A stretch of DNA of 64,000 nt, taken from an uncultured Pelagibacteraceae bacterium (GTDB taxonomy: Bacteria > Pseudomonadota > Alphaproteobacteria > Pelagibacterales > Pelagibacteraceae). The notes under the pieces were generated by a model. That model did no database searches, was not told where the DNA came from, and saw only the letters and a program-made list of their open reading frames with translations. The position numbers and the translations under genes are program-made. The stretch lies in NCBI GenBank assembly GCA_902586125.1, contig CACIGI010000002.1:1-64000 (forward strand). Reading direction: 5' to 3'. Shown in pieces: positions 12,055 to 19,889 of the stretch; position 1 is the stretch's first letter; every line of letters begins with the position of its first letter.

Positions 12055-12094
12055 GGGCCTGTAGCTCAGTTGGTTAGAGCAGTACACTCATAAT
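12055..12094 (+). pseudogene. 5'-half fragment of the CAT-anticodon tRNA gene
   Basis: Forty nucleotides identical to positions 19813-19852, covering acceptor 5' strand, D arm and anticodon arm up to the base after the anticodon loop. The sequence then departs (TTCTTTC instead of GTATTGG). No matching 3' half follows, so this copy cannot fold into a tRNA. It is interpreted as the host 5' half left behind by the island insertion. Confidence 0.9.
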
Positions 12095-12168
12095 TTCTTT
12101 CTTATAAAAAAATCTTAAATTAGTATTATAAATCAACCTTAATTGGAGGATTTTTTTTGCAATACACA

Positions 12169-12202
12169 TTTACCAACTATTTACCAACGGATGCAATTAT
12201 AG
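12169..12202 (+). repeat. left arm-like direct repeat (tandem TTTACCAAC)
   Basis: Two copies of (T)TTACCAAC with 11-bp spacing, followed by GGATGCAATTA. It matches the right copy at 19699-19733 with few differences, one of them a single-base length change between the two units. It lies 75 nt inside the left tRNA core. Repeats of this kind next to an att core are typical of arm-type binding sites of tyrosine integrases; that role is inferred. Confidence 0.65.
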
Positions 12203-12213
12203 TACGTTTTATT

Positions 12214-13452
12214 ATGAATTTAAAAATATTTAGCAAAATTTTTTTGATTATAAATTTTGTCTTTTTTTTGAATGGAATATCTAACGCAGATGAAAAAGAT
12301 ATTAAATTAAGAAGTAGTGACAATAGCGATAATTTAGAGCCTGTTCAAATTACAATTAGTCCTGATTTATTAGATATTGATAAAGCCTTAAGCTTAAAAT
12401 CTAAATATAAAATTGCAAAAGAATTTTCAATAACAACAGACAAAACTTTAAAAAAGAAAAAAAAAATTAAATATAGAGGAAGTGCTAAAAATATTTTCAA
12501 AAATTATGTAAATAGCGTGGTTTTCTTATACAATCCGACTGAAGGAGAAGAAAGTTTAGGCGCAGGTTTTTTAGTAGATAAATCTGGTATTATTTTAACT
12601 AATTGGCATGTAACAAAAGGAACAAAGGAAATTTTTGTATGGCCATTACCTGTGGGTGGATCCGTTGAGACGGAGGTATTATTCAAAGAAATTGATCCTC
12701 ATTTTGGAGCAGTACTAGCTGAAAATAAAACCCAAGATCTTGCTTTAATCAAAGTTAATGGTCTTCCATCTAGTGTAAAATTAGTTGAGCTTGGAAACAA
12801 CTCAGATATAGAAATCGGTGATACAGTTTACGCAATTGGTCACCCAAATGGATTACCTTGGAATTTTACTAATGGAATGGTTACTCAAATAAGAAAGAAT
12901 AAAAAATGGATTTATGAGGACAAATCTGAGCATACTGCCACTGTTATTCAAACTCAAACTCCTATTAGTCCTGGTAATTCTGGAGGACCATTATTTTCTG
13001 AAAAGGGAAAAATAGTTGGAATTAATACTTGGGGTGCTGAGGGTCAAAATTTAAATTTTGCTGTAGCTGTTGACCATGCAAAAGAATTTATTAAACAGAA
13101 TCCAAATTTAAAAAACGTAAATCCAGTTGATTCATTAATAAAAAAAGATTACCCAAATGCAAAAACTCAAGATTATAATAAAAATGGTGTTATAGACACC
13201 TGGTATGTTGATGAAAATAAAAATGGAAGAATTGACCTAGGATTTATTGACGATAATGAAAATGGTTTTGTTGAGGGAACTTTGATAGATAAAGATGAGG
13301 ATGGTATTTGGGAAGTATTAATTCTTGATTCTGATGAAAATGGAAAAACCGATCAAGCTTATTTAGACGAAAATTCAGATGGTAAACCTGATGTCTTAGC
13401 TCATGATTATAATGAGGATGGTGAGTGGGATAAATTTGAAAATCTTTCTTAA
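12214..13452 (+). CDS. exported trypsin-like serine protease with Ca-binding-type repeats
   Basis: The ATG at 12214 gives 412 aa with a clear signal peptide (NFVFFLNGISNA, cleavage after about residue 25). The reading frame is open further upstream to a TTG at 12157, but that would bury the signal peptide. The protease domain has the full triad: His132 in ILTNWHVTKG, Asp175 in TQDLALIKV and Ser256 in SPGNSGGPL, as in HtrA-like proteases. No PDZ domain follows. Residues 320-410 are seven 13-residue repeats of the form D-x-(N/D)-x-(N/D)-G-x-x-(D/E), which resemble EF-hand or thrombospondin type 3 calcium loops. It is convergent with the MORN-caspase gene and overlaps its end by 4 bp. Likely periplasmic or extracellular. 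Confidence 0.88.
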   Translation: MNLKIFSKIFLIINFVFFLNGISNADEKDIKLRSSDNSDNLEPVQITISPDLLDIDKALSLKSKYKIAKEFSITTDKTLKKKKKIKYRGSAKNIFKNYVNSVVFLYNPTEGEESLGAGFLVDKSGIILTNWHVTKGTKEIFVWPLPVGGSVETEVLFKEIDPHFGAVLAENKTQDLALIKVNGLPSSVKLVELGNNSDIEIGDTVYAIGHPNGLPWNFTNGMVTQIRKNKKWIYEDKSEHTATVIQTQTPISPGNSGGPLFSEKGKIVGINTWGAEGQNLNFAVAVDHAKEFIKQNPNLKNVNPVDSLIKKDYPNAKTQDYNKNGVIDTWYVDENKNGRIDLGFIDDNENGFVEGTLIDKDEDGIWEVLILDSDENGKTDQAYLDENSDGKPDVLAHDYNEDGEWDKFENLS

Positions 13453-15548
13453 GATTTAGGAAAAAATAAAAATTCTCCTCCGTTATGACCCGTGCCATGT
13501 ATTAATGAATGTTCAGGTGTTTGATTTGCATTATTAATTACGTAATTTTGAACAGTTTGAAATAATTCAATTGATCTTATTACATTAGTATTCTCTTTTA
13601 ATGCTCTTATTAAAGGTTCTGCAAAAACTGAATTTTTTGAGTCTCCAATCCCATCAGCTACTTCTTCATTTCCACCAGATGTAATTACTAATCTCGTTTT
13701 TTTAACTTGTAGTCTTTTGATTGAAGTTGCAGTTAATTTTTCTACTGATTTATTTTCACCACTTCCTCTCATAAGAGAACCAGAGAAACAACTATCAACA
13801 ATCAACAAAATATGTTTTGCATCCGATGCTCCTATCAGATCTTTAATATTTAGATTACTAATCCATTTAGAATCTTGTGTAGCTCCAGCATCTGTTGGCA
13901 ACCAATAGCCTCTTTTTTGTTTTTTTTCTAATTGTCCATGCCCTGCATAAAAAATTAAAATATTATCTTGTTTGTCTCTATTTTTAGTAAAATTAATAAT
14001 TGCATCTAAAGTATCACCAGATTTTTTGTCAGTTAATAAAGTGGTCTCAAAGCCATATTTTTCTCTTAAAACTTTTTCTAAATCCTTTGCATCATTTACT
14101 GCATTATCTAGATCTTCTAATTTGTCATAATCATTATTACCAATTATTAATGCATAGTACTTTTCGTCAGTTGTGAATTTTGCCAATGTGGTTTTACCTT
14201 CTGCTTCTTTGCCATCTTCCCATAATCCTTCATAAATATTTCCATTTGCATAGACCATTTTTCCATTACCATGCATGACACCGTCTTTAAATTGTCCAAA
14301 GTATTTATCTCCATTATTAAAATTGAAAGTTCCTTCGCCATGCTCATATCCTCTTAAAAACTCACCGATATATTTATCACCATTTGAATAAGATATTTTG
14401 CCATAACCCTCTATAATATTATCTTTAAAATCTCCTTCGTAAATTGTACCACTGACATAAGTGTATTTACCTTTTCCATTTCTTAATCCATCTAAAAATT
14501 TACCCTCATATTTTTCACCATCGGCCCATGTAAAAATACCAAATCCGCTTTCTAAACCTTTTTCCCAAGAACCTTCATATTTATTTCCATTTTTGTATTT
14601 GAAAATCCCTTTACCATCGTAAAGATTATTTTTAAAATCTCCTTCGTAAGTCTGCCCATTTTCATCAATATATTTTCCCTTACCTTGACGAAGATTGTTT
14701 TTAAATTCTCCCTCATAAATTGACCCGTCAGTCCAATAAAATTTACCTTTTCCATTTAAAAGATTATTTTTAAATTCACCCTCTCCTTTGTCTCCATTAG
14801 CATAAGTATAAGTGCCGTAACCATTGAGTCTATCATCTTTAAATTCACCTATAGCAATATCACCATTATCAAATTTCCAAGTACCCTGACCGTTTAAATA
14901 ATCTTTTACAAAAAAACCAGTGACTTCAGTTCCATCTGGTTTGCTGTAAAAACCATCACCATTTAAAAATCCATCTTTAAAAGTACCTTTATATATTGCA
15001 CCATTCCAATTTGTAAAAACACCCTGACCGTTTAGAACAAAATTTTCGAATTGGCCCTCGGACACTGATCCAAGGTTATCTGTAAATTTTCCATAACCGT
15101 GCCAAACCATATCTTTGAATTCTCCTTCGTAAAAAGATCCATCTGGCATGCTTATTTTCCCCTTACCATTACATAGATCTTTTCTAATCTCACATTCCCA
15201 CCAAGTTCCATCTTTTTCTACTTGTTTACCAAAACCATCAGCAAGATTATTTTTAAAACCTCCCACATAAATTCCACCCCAAGCTTCTCTCAAAACTCCT
15301 TGACCATGAAACTGTCCATCTTTCCATTCTCCTTTATATATATTTCTTGGAAATTTGAACTCACCATAACAATTAGTCCATTTAGTATAATCGGTTCCTT
15401 CACAATTAGGTAAGGATGTTTCAATTTTATATTTTTCCGGAATTTCAGTATTTGCTTTAAAACCTAAAATAAAAATAAACATAATTAGTAAGGAGTACTT
15501 AATTATTCTTGAGAATTTATTTTGATAAATTGATAGAAGTAATTTCAT
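13449..15548 (-). CDS. MORN-repeat caspase-fold (C14) protease
   Basis: A 699-aa protein. Residues 16-31 form a hydrophobic export signal or membrane anchor. Residues 70-460 are 17 consecutive 23-residue MORN repeats (pattern YxGxFxxxxxxGxGxxxxxxG). Residues 463-699 are a caspase/metacaspase-type domain with catalytic His537 in FYAGHGQ and Cys587 in VDSCFSG. Metacaspase-like enzymes usually cut after Arg or Lys; the target here is unknown. The C-terminus (NANQTPEHS, HNGGEFLFFP) closely matches the second island caspase at 17834. The gene overlaps the anti-sigma gene by 32 bp and is the last gene of the sigma operon. Confidence 0.92.
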   Translation of the reverse strand: MKLLLSIYQNKFSRIIKYSLLIMFIFILGFKANTEIPEKYKIETSLPNCEGTDYTKWTNCYGEFKFPRNIYKGEWKDGQFHGQGVLREAWGGIYVGGFKNNLADGFGKQVEKDGTWWECEIRKDLCNGKGKISMPDGSFYEGEFKDMVWHGYGKFTDNLGSVSEGQFENFVLNGQGVFTNWNGAIYKGTFKDGFLNGDGFYSKPDGTEVTGFFVKDYLNGQGTWKFDNGDIAIGEFKDDRLNGYGTYTYANGDKGEGEFKNNLLNGKGKFYWTDGSIYEGEFKNNLRQGKGKYIDENGQTYEGDFKNNLYDGKGIFKYKNGNKYEGSWEKGLESGFGIFTWADGEKYEGKFLDGLRNGKGKYTYVSGTIYEGDFKDNIIEGYGKISYSNGDKYIGEFLRGYEHGEGTFNFNNGDKYFGQFKDGVMHGNGKMVYANGNIYEGLWEDGKEAEGKTTLAKFTTDEKYYALIIGNNDYDKLEDLDNAVNDAKDLEKVLREKYGFETTLLTDKKSGDTLDAIINFTKNRDKQDNILIFYAGHGQLEKKQKRGYWLPTDAGATQDSKWISNLNIKDLIGASDAKHILLIVDSCFSGSLMRGSGENKSVEKLTATSIKRLQVKKTRLVITSGGNEEVADGIGDSKNSVFAEPLIRALKENTNVIRSIELFQTVQNYVINNANQTPEHSLIHGTGHNGGEFLFFPKS

Positions 15549-16272
15549 AATTATTATCTATTTTACATACATCTAGAGTAACATCGGTTCCTTGATCACT
15601 TTCAGACAATCTTAAAGGCTCATTAAATGCAATTTTTTTACAATTATTGCCACTTACATTAAAGTTTTCAACTAGTAAAAACTTAACTCTTTTACCATCA
15701 TTATCTTCCAATGAAGTTTGAAACTCTTCATTAATTTCTAAATCATCAATGGTTGAATTGATATCTTGGATAAATTGATTTTGGTTAAAATATTTATACA
15801 AATTTGTAATTCTTGTAGACAAATCTTCATCTTGTTTAGGCATGCCTCTAAATTTTAGATCTTTTGGGGCATCGATTGACTGGTTTAAGGCTATAACTTC
15901 ATTACCACTTTTTACATCTTTTCCTGAAATAAAAGTATCTGCATAAAATCCAGCAACAAACATTAAACAACATGCTGCAGCTACTCCAGCATATTGAATT
16001 TTAAATAATCCAAAGAAATTAAAAGAACCAAACTCTTTAGCTATTGGTTTTTTCCACTTTTTAATAATATCAGCTTTTTCTTGAAGATTTTTTGGTAAAG
16101 GTTGCGATTTGATTTCATTACCTAATTTAAATAATAAGTCCCCTGTTTCTTGAAAGCTATTATATAACTCTTTTAACTTTGGATCAGCTTCAATTGCTTT
16201 TTTAACCTCTTCACGTTCTTCTGTTGGAAGTGTTCCATCAGCGTATTGCATTACTTTAGTTTCATCAATCAT
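15517..16272 (-). CDS. membrane-anchored anti-sigma factor candidate
   Basis: A protein of 251 aa from the ATG at 16272, which overlaps the sigma gene stop (TAATG), so translation is coupled; an upstream in-frame start at 16305 is less likely. Residues 1-50 (KVMQYADGTLPTEEREEVKKAI) look like the cytoplasmic N-terminal domain of ECF anti-sigma factors, without the zinc-binding His/Cys. One transmembrane helix lies at about 93-112 (YAGVAAACCLMFVAGFYA). The remaining 140 residues would be periplasmic. The role as anti-sigma factor rests on domain layout plus position directly after the sigma gene. It could be the target of the proteases encoded beside it. Confidence 0.75.
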   Translation of the reverse strand: MIDETKVMQYADGTLPTEEREEVKKAIEADPKLKELYNSFQETGDLLFKLGNEIKSQPLPKNLQEKADIIKKWKKPIAKEFGSFNFFGLFKIQYAGVAAACCLMFVAGFYADTFISGKDVKSGNEVIALNQSIDAPKDLKFRGMPKQDEDLSTRITNLYKYFNQNQFIQDINSTIDDLEINEEFQTSLEDNDGKRVKFLLVENFNVSGNNCKKIAFNEPLRLSESDQGTDVTLDVCKIDNNYEITSINLSK

Positions 16273-16760
16273 TAAGCAATTAATCCTTTTAATTCTTTTC
16301 GACAATTTGATAACCTACTTAAAACAGTTCCTAAACTTTTAACTCCAGTAACTTCTTGCATTTCTTGCATGCTCATTCCTTCAGATGCTAACATTAAAAT
16401 TTCCTGACATTTTTCACCCATAGTTTTGATAGCTGAAAGAACTTTTTTTGTCTCATCTTTTAAGCCTATTCTTTCTGAAATATCATTTTGTTTATCATCA
16501 ACTACCTGTAAGTCGTTTCCTTCATCATCAGTCATAGAAGTCATTTTTTGATTTTTTCTAATTTCATCAATAAAGAGACCTTTCATTTTTAATACAGCTA
16601 TAGCTTTAATGTTTGGGTGATCCATATATTTATCTTTATTAGATATTAAATATTCCATAGCACCATTGACTAATTCGTAAGGGTCGCTTTTCCCCCTTAC
16701 TATCCCCAGCGCTATCACTACTAAGCTCTTTATAAAATTCTCGTCCAATTTCTCTGTCAT
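16272..16760 (-). CDS. ECF-type RNA polymerase sigma factor
   Basis: A 162-aa protein from the ATG at 16760; the frame is open back to a TTG at 16775. Region 2 is recognisable from ALGIVRGKSDPYELVNGAME and NIKAIAVLKMKGLFIDEIRKN, which mirrors the L-x-x-I-A-x-N-x-x-x-D-x-x-R region 2.4 pattern. Region 4 is CQEILMLASEGMSMQEMQ followed by VKSLGTVLSRLSNCRKEL, the DNA-binding helix-turn-helix. It lacks regions 1 and 3, as ECF factors do. Streamlined SAR11 genomes carry very few sigma factors, so an accessory one is noteworthy. The first 120 bp overlap another open frame (16639-16827). It is coupled to the anti-sigma gene. Confidence 0.82.
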   Translation of the reverse strand: MTEKLDENFIKSLVVIALGIVRGKSDPYELVNGAMEYLISNKDKYMDHPNIKAIAVLKMKGLFIDEIRKNQKMTSMTDDEGNDLQVVDDKQNDISERIGLKDETKKVLSAIKTMGEKCQEILMLASEGMSMQEMQEVTGVKSLGTVLSRLSNCRKELKGLIA

Positions 16761-16827
16761 ACTTAAAATCTTCAATGAGATCTAAAGTATCAAATCTAAA
16801 ACAATTATAGCTCTTATTCAATTTCAT
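16639..16827 (-). CDS. 62-aa ORF overlapping the sigma gene start (status uncertain)
   Basis: This frame starts at an ATG fused to the preceding stop (TAATG at 16829-16825), the same coupling used elsewhere in this operon. Its first 45 codons use the A/T-rich codons normal for this genome. It runs into the 5' part of the sigma gene in a different frame and stops at 16639. Either it is a small overlapping gene, or it is the true N-terminus of the sigma protein separated by a frameshift near the G-rich stretch around 16685-16700. No family is recognised. Confidence 0.35.
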   Translation of the reverse strand: MKLNKSYNCFRFDTLDLIEDFKYDREIGREFYKELSSDSAGDSKGEKRPLRISQWCYGIFNI

Positions 16828-17018
16828 TATATCCTCTTAATACTTGGTGAATCACCACATCTATAAAGTGGATTTGAGTAGGTATTTATAAATTGATACT
16901 CAACTTCTGAGTTGCAGGAAAAATATATATTTTCTGCACTCGCTCTTAAAGGATTATTAATTATTAAAACTATTTTTAATAATAAAAAAATAATAAATAT
17001 TATAAAATAATTCTTCAT
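16827..17018 (-). CDS. small exported protein, 63 aa, two cysteines
   Basis: The protein is MKN plus a strong hydrophobic stretch (YFIIFIIFLLLKIVLIIN) and a cleavage-like site NPLRASA-E, followed by a 35-residue mature part with two Cys that could form a disulfide. No family is recognised. It starts inside the stop of peptide A (TAATG) and its own stop overlaps the next ATG, so it belongs to the sigma operon transcribed from the promoter at 17202-17227. Confidence 0.6.
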   Translation of the reverse strand: MKNYFIIFIIFLLLKIVLIINNPLRASAENIYFSCNSEVEYQFINTYSNPLYRCGDSPSIKRI

Positions 17019-17158
17019 TAGAAATTTGCTCCTTTAATAAATTTGTTTGTATAAAAATTATACCCATTCAAATCATTAGAAATAACATTCCATTCACTTG
17101 CTTGAGATGTGTTATGTAAAGCTGCAATTATACCAAAAATCATAATTATCTTTTTCAT
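17018..17158 (-). CDS. small exported peptide A, 46 aa, first gene of the sigma operon
   Basis: The 46-residue sequence has the signal peptide MKKIIMIFGIIAALHNTSQA and a mature part of about 26 residues (SEWNVISNDLNGYNFY and onward). The start is set by AAAGGA 8 nt upstream of ATG 17158; an in-frame ATG 36 nt further up lies in the conserved leader. Its stop overlaps the start of the 63-aa gene. It is the promoter-proximal gene of the operon peptide A - 63 aa - sigma - anti-sigma - MORN caspase. No similarity to known families is seen in the mature part. Confidence 0.65.
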   Translation of the reverse strand: MKKIIMIFGIIAALHNTSQASEWNVISNDLNGYNFYTNKFIKGANF

Positions 17159-17201
17159 CGTGTTTCCTTTTGTTAGTTGTTTGTTTTTGTTCATGTTTAA
17201 T

Positions 17202-17227
17202 TAACGTTTGATGTTGAATTTTATTCA
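17202..17227 (-). promoter_or_regulatory. ECF-type promoter A (sigma operon)
   Basis: On the minus strand TGAATAA (17227-17221), 14 nt, then CGTTA (17206-17202). Written as TGAAT-N16-CGTTA it has the geometry of ECF promoters (GGAAC-N16-CGTT). It is followed by the conserved leader with AACAAAAACAAACAACTAAC and the ribosome site AAAGGA. The operon downstream encodes the sigma factor itself, which suggests autoregulation. Confidence 0.75.
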
Positions 17228-17240
17228 AAAAAAAAGATAA

Positions 17241-17269
17241 AAAAAAAGCCCCTGAAAAGGGGCTTTTTT
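17241..17269 (-). terminator. terminator of peptide B
   Basis: The hairpin AAGCCCC-TGAA-AAGGGGCTT is flanked by an A run on one side and a T run on the other, so it can work in both directions. It lies 14 bp after the stop of peptide B and just upstream of promoter A, insulating the two units. The same sequence recurs at 19384-19414. Confidence 0.85.
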
Positions 17270-17283
17270 AATCATAATTATTA

Positions 17284-17427
17284 CTAGTAAATAATAATTA
17301 CTGAAGGTCCAGAAGAGCTATAACTTGGATTAGACATAGTGCTCATGTAACTATTGTCTCTAGTAACTGCATTTGCACTTGTTGCTAAAATTGAAAGTAT
17401 TCCTATTACCATTGCTATCTTTTTCAT
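17284..17427 (-). CDS. small exported peptide B, 47 aa
   Basis: This ORF encodes 47 aa: signal peptide MKKIAMVIGILSILATSANA (19 of 20 residues identical to peptide D) and a mature part of 27 residues rich in Ser, Tyr and Asn (VTRDNSYMSTMSNPSYSSSG and onward). The start follows AAAGGAAACACG. It is preceded by promoter B and followed by a terminator, so it forms its own transcription unit. The mature part matches none of the other island peptides. Confidence 0.65.
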   Translation of the reverse strand: MKKIAMVIGILSILATSANAVTRDNSYMSTMSNPSYSSSGPSVIIIY

Positions 17428-17470
17428 CGTGTTTCCTTTTGTTAGTTGTTTGTTTTTGTTCATATTTAAC

Positions 17471-17496
17471 TAACGTTTGAAGTCAGATTTTATTCA
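17471..17496 (-). promoter_or_regulatory. ECF-type promoter B
   Basis: TGAATAA (17496-17490), 14 nt, CGTTA (17475-17471) on the minus strand, followed by the same leader as promoters A, C and D. It drives peptide B. Confidence 0.75.
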
Positions 17497-17515
17497 AAAA
17501 AAATTGAATTTTTTT

Positions 17516-17553
17516 TGCCTAAAAGGAGCAATTTATTAAGCTCCTTTTAGGTG
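17516..17553. other. 12-bp stem inverted repeat after the NPW-repeat gene
   Basis: CCTAAAAGGAGC and GCTCCTTTTAGG pair perfectly around a 10-nt loop, 6 bp after the stop of the 17559-17774 gene. The sequence that would follow the hairpin in that transcript is A-rich rather than U-rich, so it is not a classical intrinsic terminator. It may stabilise the mRNA 3' end. Confidence 0.55.
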
Positions 17554-17558
17554 ATTAT

Positions 17559-17774
17559 TTATCTTTCGTATTTCCACTTACCTGTCCAAGGGTTGTATTC
17601 AAGCTGTGAGTCCTTTCTTTCATAACTCCATTCGCTTTCCCAAGGGTTGTATTTTAAAGAGGAATCCCTTGGCGCACTTTCCCATTGGCCAGAGTAAGGG
17701 TTATACTTAATCTCAGCCAAACTTATGTTTGGTAGGAGTAAAAAAAACGAAATAATCAGTAGTTTTTTTTTCAT
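17559..17774 (-). CDS. exported 71-aa protein with three NP(W/Y) repeats
   Basis: The start at ATG 17774 is fixed by an excellent AGGAGG 5 nt upstream; an open frame reaches back to 17819 but lacks such a site. Residues 1-19 are a signal peptide (LLIISFFLLLPNISLA). The mature part consists of three repeats of 15-17 residues: IKYNPYSGQWESAPRD, LKYNPWESEWSYERKD and LEYNPWTGKWKYER. The pattern is (K/E)YNP(Y/W)xxxW. No family is recognised; the repeats might bind a carbohydrate or peptide. It is divergent from the second caspase gene and has promoter element E. Confidence 0.72.
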   Translation of the reverse strand: MKKKLLIISFFLLLPNISLAEIKYNPYSGQWESAPRDSSLKYNPWESEWSYERKDSQLEYNPWTGKWKYER

Positions 17775-17792
17775 TTTAACCTCCTGGAATGT

Positions 17793-17818
17793 TAACGATA
17801 AAGTGATAAATTTATTCA
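17793..17818 (-). promoter_or_regulatory. ECF-type promoter E (NPW-repeat gene)
   Basis: TGAATAA (17818-17812), 14 nt, CGTTA (17797-17793) on the minus strand, 19 bp upstream of ATG 17774. Unlike copies A-D the following leader is not the conserved one, so the match of both boxes and of the exact spacing is independent support for the promoter reading. Confidence 0.72.
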
Positions 17819-17833
17819 ATTGAATTAAGAAAT

Positions 17834-19078
17834 ATGAAAATACATAATAGAAATAGTTTATTGTTTTTACTCTGTATCTTTTTTAGTATTTCATTTTTAT
17901 TTCCTGCTCATTCTAATCAAATAGATAATGCTAAAAAATTAAATTTTAAAGAATCTGGTCCATTTTATGGGGTGAAAAAAAATGGTAAAAAATTAAGAGG
18001 AATATTAATTGGTACTAAAATGGACTCTGGGCAAAGTGATTGGTATGGAACATTTGATAAAAAAGGTGCATATTGGAAAGGTTATTTTAAACATACTTAC
18101 CCTGATGGTGAAATATTATATCAATACACTGAATATGGTGTGGATAGTAAGGGAATAGTAATTAGAGAGGGCAAATCATGGAAAGTTGTAGATCAGTATC
18201 TGATTTCGAAAGAGGATTTTGAGAAAGTAAAACTATATATTCAGTACGATATTGAGCTCCCTTTTAGCTTTTATGAGTTTGACTTAGGGGACAAAAAAAT
18301 TGCTGAGCAAAAACCTCAAGAAGAAAAAGTTAAATTAACTAAAACACAAACATTTTCTACTGAAGAAAATTACTATGCTTTAGTTATTGGAAACAATAAT
18401 TATCAACATTTAGAAAAATTAGATGCAGCTGAAAATGATGCTGTTGTGATTGCTGATGTGTTAGAGAAAAAATACGGATTTGAAGTAGATTTACTTTTAA
18501 ATGCAGATTATGACCAAACAGTTAATTCCCTGTTTAAAATTACAGATAAACTTAAAAGAAATGATAATTTGCTTATTTATTATGCAGGTCATGGAGAATT
18601 AGATAAAGATGAAAATAGAGGTTACTGGCTGCCAGTTGATGCAAGTTATGAAATGAGATCAAAATGGATAAGTAATCAAAGGATTGTTGATCGAATTAAG
18701 GCTACAAAAGCTAAGCATGTTTTATTAGTTGCAGATAGTTGTTTTTCAGGAACATTAATGAGATCGGGAGGTAATTTAGAGAAAGAAGAATCTATTGATG
18801 AAAAATATATTAAGAGACTTAAAAACAAAAAAACACGTCTAGTTATTACTTCTGGAGGGAATGAACCAGTTGTTGATAGTGTAGGTGGTGATCATTCTTT
18901 GTTTGCTCTAAAATTCATCGATACCTTAAAAAACAATAATACTGTAATTAATTCTCAAATTTTATTTGAAAACGTTAGAAGATATGTGGTAGCAAATGCA
19001 GACCAAACCCCAGAAAGAGCAATGGTTCATAAAACTGGTCACGATGGAGGAGATTTTTTATTTTTTCCTAAGAAATAA
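17834..19078 (+). CDS. exported caspase-fold (C14) protease
   Basis: A 414-aa protein with a signal peptide (LFLLCIFFSISFLFPAHS). Residues 60-110 contain MORN-like stretches (GTFDKKGAYWKGYFKHTYPD). The caspase domain spans about 178-414, with catalytic His253 in YYAGHGEL and Cys303 in VADSCFSG. It is clearly a paralogue of the C-terminal domain of the 13449-15548 protein: RGYWLPVDA, KWISNQRI, TRLVITSGGNEPV and the tail GGDFLFFPKK all have counterparts there. It is the only caspase not in the sigma operon; it is divergent from the NPW-repeat gene and no ECF element is seen upstream on its strand. Probably periplasmic. Confidence 0.9.
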   Translation: MKIHNRNSLLFLLCIFFSISFLFPAHSNQIDNAKKLNFKESGPFYGVKKNGKKLRGILIGTKMDSGQSDWYGTFDKKGAYWKGYFKHTYPDGEILYQYTEYGVDSKGIVIREGKSWKVVDQYLISKEDFEKVKLYIQYDIELPFSFYEFDLGDKKIAEQKPQEEKVKLTKTQTFSTEENYYALVIGNNNYQHLEKLDAAENDAVVIADVLEKKYGFEVDLLLNADYDQTVNSLFKITDKLKRNDNLLIYYAGHGELDKDENRGYWLPVDASYEMRSKWISNQRIVDRIKATKAKHVLLVADSCFSGTLMRSGGNLEKEESIDEKYIKRLKNKKTRLVITSGGNEPVVDSVGGDHSLFALKFIDTLKNNNTVINSQILFENVRRYVVANADQTPERAMVHKTGHDGGDFLFFPKK

Positions 19079-19110
19079 AAAAAGCCCCTTAAGGAGTAAA
19101 GGGGCTTTTA
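19079..19110. terminator. bidirectional terminator between caspase and peptide C
   Basis: The hairpin AGCCCCTT / AAGGGGCT with loop AAGGAGTA is bordered by an A run on the left and TTTT on the right. It lies directly after the caspase stop and 17 bp from the stop of the convergent peptide C gene. Confidence 0.85.
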
Positions 19111-19126
19111 ATTAACTAGAGATTGA

Positions 19127-19303
19127 TTAGCAACCACTGAAATTATTCCAGCAAATTCCATCAGGGTTTGTTCTGTAATGAGACTCTACATAAGTGCCAT
19201 TACTTTTAAAATATCCATCAACTAATACTAAAGCATTAGCAGCTGTATTTAAATTTAGGCCAATTACCGAAATTAGACCAATCATCATTATTACTTTTTT
19301 CAT
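19127..19303 (-). CDS. small exported peptide C, 58 aa
   Basis: The start at ATG 19303 follows AAAGGAAACACA; an in-frame ATG at 19339 lies in the leader. The protein has the signal peptide MKKVIMMIGLISVIGLNLN with cleavage after TAANA, then VLVDGYFKSNGTYVESHYRT followed by NPDG and a C-terminal part with two Cys. The motif GYxxxNGTYVxxHYRTNPDG occurs in many small exported proteins of unknown role in Proteobacteria, so unlike A, B and D this peptide has recognisable relatives. Confidence 0.68.
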   Translation of the reverse strand: MKKVIMMIGLISVIGLNLNTAANALVLVDGYFKSNGTYVESHYRTNPDGICWNNFSGC

Positions 19304-19346
19304 TGTGTTTCCTTTTGTTAGTTGTTTGTTTTTGTTCATATTTAAC

Positions 19347-19372
19347 TAACGTTTGATTTTGATTTTTATTCA
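19347..19372 (-). promoter_or_regulatory. ECF-type promoter C
   Basis: TGAATAA (19372-19366), 14 nt, CGTTA (19351-19347) on the minus strand, followed by the conserved leader of peptide C. The block terminator-promoter-leader here is nearly identical to that of copy A (17190-17272), which shows duplication of the whole block. Confidence 0.75.
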
Positions 19373-19383
19373 AAAAAAAAGAT

Positions 19384-19414
19384 AAAAAAAAAGCCCCTGA
19401 AAAGGGGCTTTTTT
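19384..19414 (-). terminator. terminator of peptide D
   Basis: AAGCCCC-TGAA-AAGGGGCTT with A and T runs, the same sequence as 17241-17269. It lies 25 bp after the stop of peptide D and upstream of promoter C. Confidence 0.85.
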
Positions 19415-19438
19415 ATTTTATTACTTTTGGATTTTAGC

Positions 19439-19591
19439 TTAGTGCCATCCACCCATTAATATATTATAAGTAGGAGTATAAGTACTAGTGTATCCACCAC
19501 CAAATCCGTTAGGTGTATGTGTCCAGTAACCAGCATTAGCACTTGTTGCTAAAACTGAAAGTATTCCTATTACCATTGCTATCTTTTTCAT
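19439..19591 (-). CDS. small exported peptide D, 50 aa
   Basis: The start at ATG 19591 follows the ribosome site AAAGGAAACACA. The signal peptide MKKIAMVIGILSVLATSANA differs from that of peptide B by one residue. The mature part of 30 residues (GYWTHTPNGFGGGYTSTYTP and onward) is rich in Gly, Tyr, Thr and Trp, and is unlike peptide B. Transcription would come from promoter D and end at the hairpin at 19384-19414. Confidence 0.65.
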   Translation of the reverse strand: MKKIAMVIGILSVLATSANAGYWTHTPNGFGGGYTSTYTPTYNILMGGWH

Positions 19592-19634
19592 TGTGTTTCC
19601 TTTTGTTAGTTGTTTGTTTTTGTTCATATTTAAC

Positions 19635-19660
19635 TAACGTCTGATGATGAATTTTATTCA
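19635..19660 (-). promoter_or_regulatory. ECF-type promoter D
   Basis: TGAATAA (19660-19654), 14 nt, CGTTA (19639-19635) on the minus strand, followed by the conserved leader of peptide D. It is the rightmost copy, 39 bp from the right arm-like repeat. Confidence 0.75.
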
Positions 19661-19698
19661 AAAAAAAATTAAATTATTCCAGTAAAAGGTGAAAATCA

Positions 19699-19733
19699 CT
19701 TACCAACCGATTTACCAACGAATGCAATTACAG
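19699..19733 (+). repeat. right arm-like direct repeat (tandem TTTACCAAC)
   Basis: Two copies of (T)TTACCAAC with 12-bp spacing, followed by GAATGCAATTA; it is the partner of 12169-12202. It lies 80 nt before the tRNA core at 19813. The stretch 19661-19812 holds no gene that I can see. Confidence 0.65.
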
Positions 19734-19812
19734 ACAGAAACAAATAGAAACAAAATGAAAACATTCCAGCTTGATTAAAGTTAATATTGTTGTAAAACCT
19801 AGATTCTTAATA

Positions 19813-19889
19813 GGGCCTGTAGCTCAGTTGGTTAGAGCAGTACACTCATAATGTATTGGTCCCAGGTTCGAGTCCTGGCGGGCCCACCA
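19813..19889 (+). tRNA. tRNA with CAT anticodon, probably tRNA-Ile2 (or elongator Met)
   Basis: A 77-nt cloverleaf with encoded CCA: acceptor GGGCCTG/CGGGCCC, D arm GCTC-AGTTGGTTA-GAGC, anticodon loop CTCATAA (CAT at 19847-19849), T arm CCAGG-TTCGAGT-CCTGG. The first 40 nt are duplicated at 12055, so the 5' half of this copy was supplied by the island and the 3' half is the original host one. A GGGCC acceptor and TTGGTC after the anticodon stem look more like the lysidine-type tRNA-Ile2 than elongator tRNA-Met, but sequence alone does not settle this. Confidence 0.93.

Follow-up and report, generated by a model that had tools for sequence, protein, structure and literature searches.

Bacterial caspases are numerous, and little is known of how most of them are controlled or of what they act on. 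SAR11 bacteria are among the most abundant in the ocean and, to our knowledge, few defence or stress switches have been described in them. Tycheposons are small cargo elements that reside in the tRNA genes of streamlined marine bacteria. The cutting of RseA by DegS is a precedent for the release of a sigma factor by a protease. In the type III-E CRISPR system known as Craspase, the CHAT protease Csx29 cuts Csx30 and thereby frees CASP-sigma; this system is cytoplasmic, RNA-guided by Cas7-11 and accompanied by a CRISPR array (PMC10028731). A metagenome survey found metacaspases of aquatic bacteria in which MORN repeats are joined to a caspase domain (PMC4933709). Here we describe a SAR11 island that combines two caspases, an HtrA-type protease, an extracytoplasmic function (ECF) sigma factor, a membrane anti-sigma factor and small exported proteins, and whose most probable role is that of an envelope switch set off by proteolysis, possibly directed against phages.

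The window (the entire stretch of DNA analysed, 64,000 nucleotides in length) contains the island at positions 12055–19852, between a tRNA-Val and a tRNA-Met gene. The left, attL-like end (12055..12094, plus strand) reproduces without mismatch the 40 nt with which the tRNA-Met gene (anticodon CAT; 19813..19889, plus strand) begins; this gene is the target, and its own first 40 nt form attR, ending at 19852. In four element-free relatives the two tRNA genes are only about 60–70 bp apart and the interval is empty, so the 7.8 kb found here are an insertion rather than ancestral sequence, and the extent given in the initial annotation is borne out to its last coordinate. Twin TTTACCAAC arm-type direct repeats lie just within the left end (12169..12202, plus strand) and an arm repeat, TTTACCAACGAATGCAATTA, lies near the right end (19711..19733, plus strand); short TTTACCAAC repeats are thus present just inside both ends. 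No integrase, and hence no element-encoded tyrosine recombinase of the kind that defines tycheposons and autonomous integrative elements, was found among the island open reading frames (ORFs). The sole Phage_integrase match of this genome is on a different contig (C11), and none of the tested genomes showed more than one tyrosine recombinase of about 325 amino acids, which lies outside the elements and which we take to be XerD-like. All relatives of the island in named genomes are Pelagibacteraceae records, and the arm repeat was not found in viral contigs. With slightly more confidence than doubt, and jointly with the whole switch model set out below, we regard the island as a tRNA-Met element that is non-autonomous and that carries a single regulatory circuit as its cargo.

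Three exported proteases are encoded, as had been annotated. The first is an HtrA/trypsin-like serine protease (12214..13452, plus strand; start probably the ATG at 12214, inside the listed ORF), assigned by Pfam and NCBIfam models, comparison with the PDB and its triad motifs. It matches Trypsin_2 in Pfam (E = 3e-27) and HhoA in the PDB (E = 8.5e-23), and the His, Asp and Ser motifs (TNWHV, QDLAL and GNSGGP) are intact. Pfam models detected no PDZ domain, and the C terminus consists of seven acidic D-x-[ND]-x-[ND]-G loops. The other two are caspases of the Peptidase_C14 family, both of which retain the catalytic His and Cys (YAGHG and DSCFSG). One, a MORN-repeat caspase (13449..15548, minus strand; MORN, E = 1.4e-70; Peptidase_C14, E = 8e-27), is the closing gene of the sigma operon; the other stands alone (17834..19078, plus strand; Peptidase_C14, E = 8e-23) and has an N-terminal domain rich in beta-strands. 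The full-length caspase structure model (pLDDT 51) was too poor for use. Neither the caspase nor the caspase alignment had relatives among viral contigs.

The sigma gene (16272..16760, minus strand; probable start, the ATG at 16760 within the listed ORF) encodes a divergent ECF-type factor. Its best NCBIfam matches are ECF families (E = 9e-14 at best), under the curated cut-offs there as well as in Pfam, and profile positions 16–161 match solved structures of SigH and other ECF sigma factors (E = 1.9e-7), with regions 2 and 4 both represented. The adjoining gene (15517..16272, minus strand; probable start, the ATG at 16272, likewise within the listed ORF) encodes the candidate membrane anti-sigma factor, in which N-terminal helices resembling an anti-sigma domain are followed by one transmembrane segment and an alpha/beta domain with two invariant cysteines. 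Structural comparison of these helices ranks RslA (Z = 5.6) and RskA (Z = 5.2) first, with MucA (4.7) and ChrR (4.1) further down, on a predicted model with a mean pLDDT of 61; the fold match therefore lends the assignment modest support. The N-terminal region of the aligned anti-sigma proteins contains no ZAS motif (HxxxCxxC) of the type found in zinc anti-sigma factors, and a search with the periplasmic domain returned no clear relative. The gene ends of sigma, anti-sigma and MORN-caspase overlap, and the initial assignment of a sigma/anti-sigma pair to these families holds at the strengths given.

In one copy (L134, 6693–7178), the sigma factor differs from that of the window in the sequence type of its C-terminal region 4, which is similar to that of L138, and matches it in the rest; this looks like a domain swap, and the −35 element of the promoter is nonetheless unchanged. 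A different, weakly related ECF sigma/anti-sigma pair adjoins recA, without caspases, in another genome (G394; L133, 228–1345), and two further genomes (G018 and G552) have a weakly related ECF sigma, seen as sigma matches alone. Viral contigs contained no relatives of the island sigma, and phage records gave one weak match to it.

The small proteins number six, all encoded on the minus strand. The sigma operon opens with a protein of family D with an apparent signal sequence (17018..17158), followed by family E (16827..17018; ..NPxYRCGxSP..). The others are a protein that was not recognised in other copies (17284..17427), a peptide of YNPxxxxW repeats (family C, 17559..17774), and peptides of families A (19127..19303; GYFKSNGTYV..HYRTNPDG) and B (19439..19591; GYWTHTP..TYTPTYN..MGGW). 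Probable true starts are the ATGs at 17158, 17427, 17774, 19303 and 19591, within the listed ORFs. The initial count of six is correct; as to their export, hydropathy shows a clear N-terminal hydrophobic signal in five, and that of the protein at 17018..17158 is discerned by eye only. The family B peptide occurs twice in L134 (8174–8362 and 11078–11266) with an identical protein sequence. Small proteins with YNP repeats and with the GYxRSNGTYV motif are encoded on plasmids of Thermus oshimai (L224, 4995–5261) and Burkholderia glumae (L225, 3878–4147); at the level of sequence motifs, both features thus occur outside SAR11. Among phage records, peptide family A had no match and the YN repeats gave weak matches in Thermus phage.

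A 145-nt upstream repeat is common to four of the small-protein genes and, aligned across copies, contains a T-tract, TGAATAAAA and CAAACGTTA. We also considered the MNKNKQLTKGNT repeat that precedes four of the peptides as coding sequence. This was rejected because it lies between a promoter and a good ribosome-binding site directly preceding the second ATG, and it is best read as a common 5′ leader behind a common promoter. That promoter, TGAAT-N16-CGTT, lies ahead of the sigma operon (17202..17228), with further candidates at 17471..17497, 17793..17819, 19347..19373 and 19635..19661, all on the minus strand; these five are the only matches in the 977-kb genome. Its spacing equals the usual distance from GGAAC to CGT in ECF promoters. 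In the eight copies of the island, which are mutually related so that their sites are not independent events, the strict pattern TGAAT-N16-CGT[T/C] occurs 34 times, always on the peptide strand, compared with 0.58 expected from shuffled sequences and 0–2 matches for each other spacing. Across 349 genomes of the same genus, a stricter pattern has 13 sites in genomes that carry the sigma, with every one of these 4 genomes represented, and a single site in the remaining 345; the reversed pattern, used as a control, matched twice. By sequence, then, a GGAAC-like −35 element and a CGT −10 element about 16 nt apart precede both the sigma factor’s own operon and its candidate targets, in agreement with the ECF regulon of small exported proteins that had been proposed.

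Three peptide cassettes are followed by intrinsic terminators. Between peptide D and the start of the MORN-caspase gene the minus strand yielded none, and transcription of the entire operon (small proteins D and E, sigma, anti-sigma and MORN-caspase, in that order) is therefore probably under the first promoter. As in the earlier reading, the operon closes with the MORN-caspase. Because the first small-protein unit reads into the sigma, anti-sigma and MORN-caspase genes, positive autoregulation is implied. The predicted regulon, which is self-contained and autoregulated and comprises exported small proteins, sigma, anti-sigma and MORN-caspase, is well supported. The stand-alone caspase and the HtrA-type gene, the latter convergent to the anti-sigma operon in each copy, lack the ECF promoter, and which protease acts as trigger and which as output is accordingly a guess.

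These features also suit other readings. The island could be a secreted-peptide system, whose small peptides, matured or exported by the proteases, serve as toxins, signals or surface molecules. Several differing short families share one style of signal peptide, one leader and one promoter, and family B is duplicated unchanged in L134; however, the island ORFs and their Pfam matches revealed neither a dedicated transporter nor an immunity gene, and relatives of the family A motif and of the YN repeats occur in unrelated plasmid proteins. We consider this account distinctly unlikely. Somewhat less unlikely is a mobile envelope-stress response resembling that of sigma-E, with the HtrA-type protease in the role of DegS, small proteins that protect or remodel the envelope, caspases that serve housekeeping and no conflict role. 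The protease and the sigma/anti-sigma pair do resemble DegS-RseA-RpoE, and every product except the sigma factor is exported or membrane bound. However, of the 349 genomes of the genus only 4 contain the island sigma, the tRNA site is variable and shared with restriction–modification cargo, and the sigma promoter was not found in the genome beyond the island, such that housekeeping envelope genes are apparently outside the regulon.

Conservation of the set bears directly on whether the genes belong together. The caspase alignment, run against named genomes, matched 32 loci, of which 7 are from SAR11 and 25 from other organisms. All 7 SAR11 loci have the HtrA-type protease, sigma, anti-sigma, small proteins and one or more caspases, and all eight SAR11 copies found carry island-type caspases together with these partners. 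L138 has no MORN-caspase adjoining the anti-sigma gene, so the MORN-caspase may not be essential; the L131/L137 copy carries a third caspase (L131, 12825–15809; 994 amino acids, with several predicted N-terminal membrane segments), and the L139 copy ends at a contig edge. In flanks of up to 10 kb around the 25 non-SAR11 caspases, no profile match to the sigma, anti-sigma, trypsin or YN-peptide was found, with profiles that could miss divergent ECF sigma factors. In the same genus, island-type caspases were found only in the sigma-positive genomes; the caspases of ten further genomes, which lack the island sigma, are more distant. Ratios of dN/dS are 0.04–0.48 across the coding regions, small proteins included, and the island genes are under purifying selection. 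As tRNA islands often gather unrelated genes, a chance assembly of cargo with no common function has to be weighed. It is very improbable and largely refuted by co-occurrence: the set is kept in eight copies, promoter and sigma occur together, and the L140 copy keeps the set at a non-tRNA site adjoining azlCD-like genes. The initial annotation had proposed a coherent system, which scattered genes would have undermined; the co-location of the parts, the family fit of sigma and anti-sigma and the ECF promoter all argue for it.

The same tRNA-Met interval holds other cargo, flanked by the same twin TTTACCAAC repeats, at nine loci (L187, L189, L211, L212, L213, L215, L217, L218 and L219). This cargo includes C5 methylases with an HNH nuclease, an HSP90-like ATPase with a Z1 protein, an RNase H/helicase protein, Hsp70, leucine-rich proteins and PrsW proteases; no integrase was found on these sister elements. 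Judged from gene content, the site is a hot spot at which defence cargo is plentiful though not exclusive. The circuit also directs attention to a family of tRNA-Met elements that have no integrase and by which restriction and protease genes are shuffled among SAR11 bacteria. The sister cargo indirectly favours a phage-defence or suicide module, in which a phage-induced envelope signal leads exported caspases and peptides to kill the cell or to block phage entry or release, as do a partial match to the PADLOC caspase model (E = 4.7e-13) and the precedent of Craspase. However, the Hsp70, PrsW protease and leucine-rich proteins among the sister cargo are not defence genes, and cytoplasmic phage signals would be out of direct reach of exported caspases. 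We hold this reading to be possible but short of probable.

A distant variant was found in one genome of another family in the same order (G113). Here a CHAT-domain protein (Pfam, E = 9e-45) with HG and C motifs and an N-terminal hydrophobic segment is encoded divergently from a related sigma, an anti-sigma and an exported YN-repeat peptide, and GGAAT-N16-CGT precedes the sigma and the peptide (5 sites in 20 kb, compared with 0.44 expected). A predicted membrane-anchored CHAT protease thus appears to stand in place of the C14 caspases, with sigma, anti-sigma and a related YN-repeat peptide kept, which suggests a common core of caspase-clan protease, sigma and its inhibitor, and YN peptide. The 53 genomes of that family yielded no further clear CHAT case, so that the variant is represented by one genome.

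The best explanation for the island, to which we incline slightly more than not, is a mobile sigma/anti-sigma circuit that converts an envelope event into the production of exported small proteins through proteolysis of the anti-sigma. At rest, the sigma would be held at the membrane by the anti-sigma. An envelope event, possibly phage attack, would activate the exported HtrA-type protease and/or a caspase, which would cleave the periplasmic domain of the anti-sigma and free the sigma. The free sigma would then direct synthesis of several short exported proteins in large amounts and of more MORN-caspase, and this output may remodel or dismantle the envelope. The regulon, the architecture of autoregulation, the export signals, the catalytic motifs and the conservation of the unit can be read from the DNA itself; we infer the trigger, the cleavage and the defence role. 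DegS-RseA and Csx29-Csx30-CASP-sigma together indicate that proteases of both kinds can free a sigma factor elsewhere. A broader proposal, that periplasmic caspase-clan proteases (C14 or CHAT) act upstream of a sigma that releases small exported effectors as an extracytoplasmic caspase–ECF immune switch, is tentative and rather doubtful.

Several described systems share parts of this design. The evidence goes against the initial link to published conflict systems that pair caspases and trypsins: C14 caspase and trypsin-like protease do share a locus in those EACC systems, and the best NCBIfam caspase model is caspase_w_EACC1, but the scores are 84 and 75 bits against a cut-off of 140, no NTPase or EACC partner domain is present in the island, and its enzymes are exported and under ECF sigma control. 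The MORN-caspase architecture is identical to that of the MORN-metacaspases of aquatic bacteria; the text of that survey makes no mention of sigma factors, with which the island pairs its MORN-caspase (PMC4933709). The island resembles tycheposons and similar tRNA-borne elements of marine plankton in being a small cargo element in a tRNA gene, but unlike tycheposons carries no integrase. Among open-licence papers we found none in which caspases and an HtrA-type protease are joined to an ECF sigma and small exported proteins, consistent with the earlier suggestion that the linkage of caspases and trypsin to an ECF regulon of exported peptides is undescribed.

The closest known logic is that of Craspase and DegS-RseA, and the island belongs to neither. 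Like Craspase, it encodes a caspase-clan protease with an ECF-type sigma and an inhibitor, and the sigma motif lies in promoters of its own locus (PMC10028731). Unlike Craspase, its proteases are exported, its inhibitor is a membrane protein and its output is exported small proteins; neither Cas genes among the island ORFs nor a CRISPR array among its repeats was found. With DegS-RseA-RpoE and AlgW-MucA-AlgU it shares a membrane anti-sigma, an ECF-type sigma, an exported HtrA-type protease and autoregulation; it differs in that the protease has acidic D-x-N-x-N-G loops and no PDZ domain, in that the unit includes caspases and small exported proteins, and in that the regulon is limited to the mobile island. 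Because sigma, inhibitor, promoter and targets of this caspase system are defined, its control and output are directly testable. Its parts belong to known families, and their combination is a variant of the protease-controlled sigma switch.
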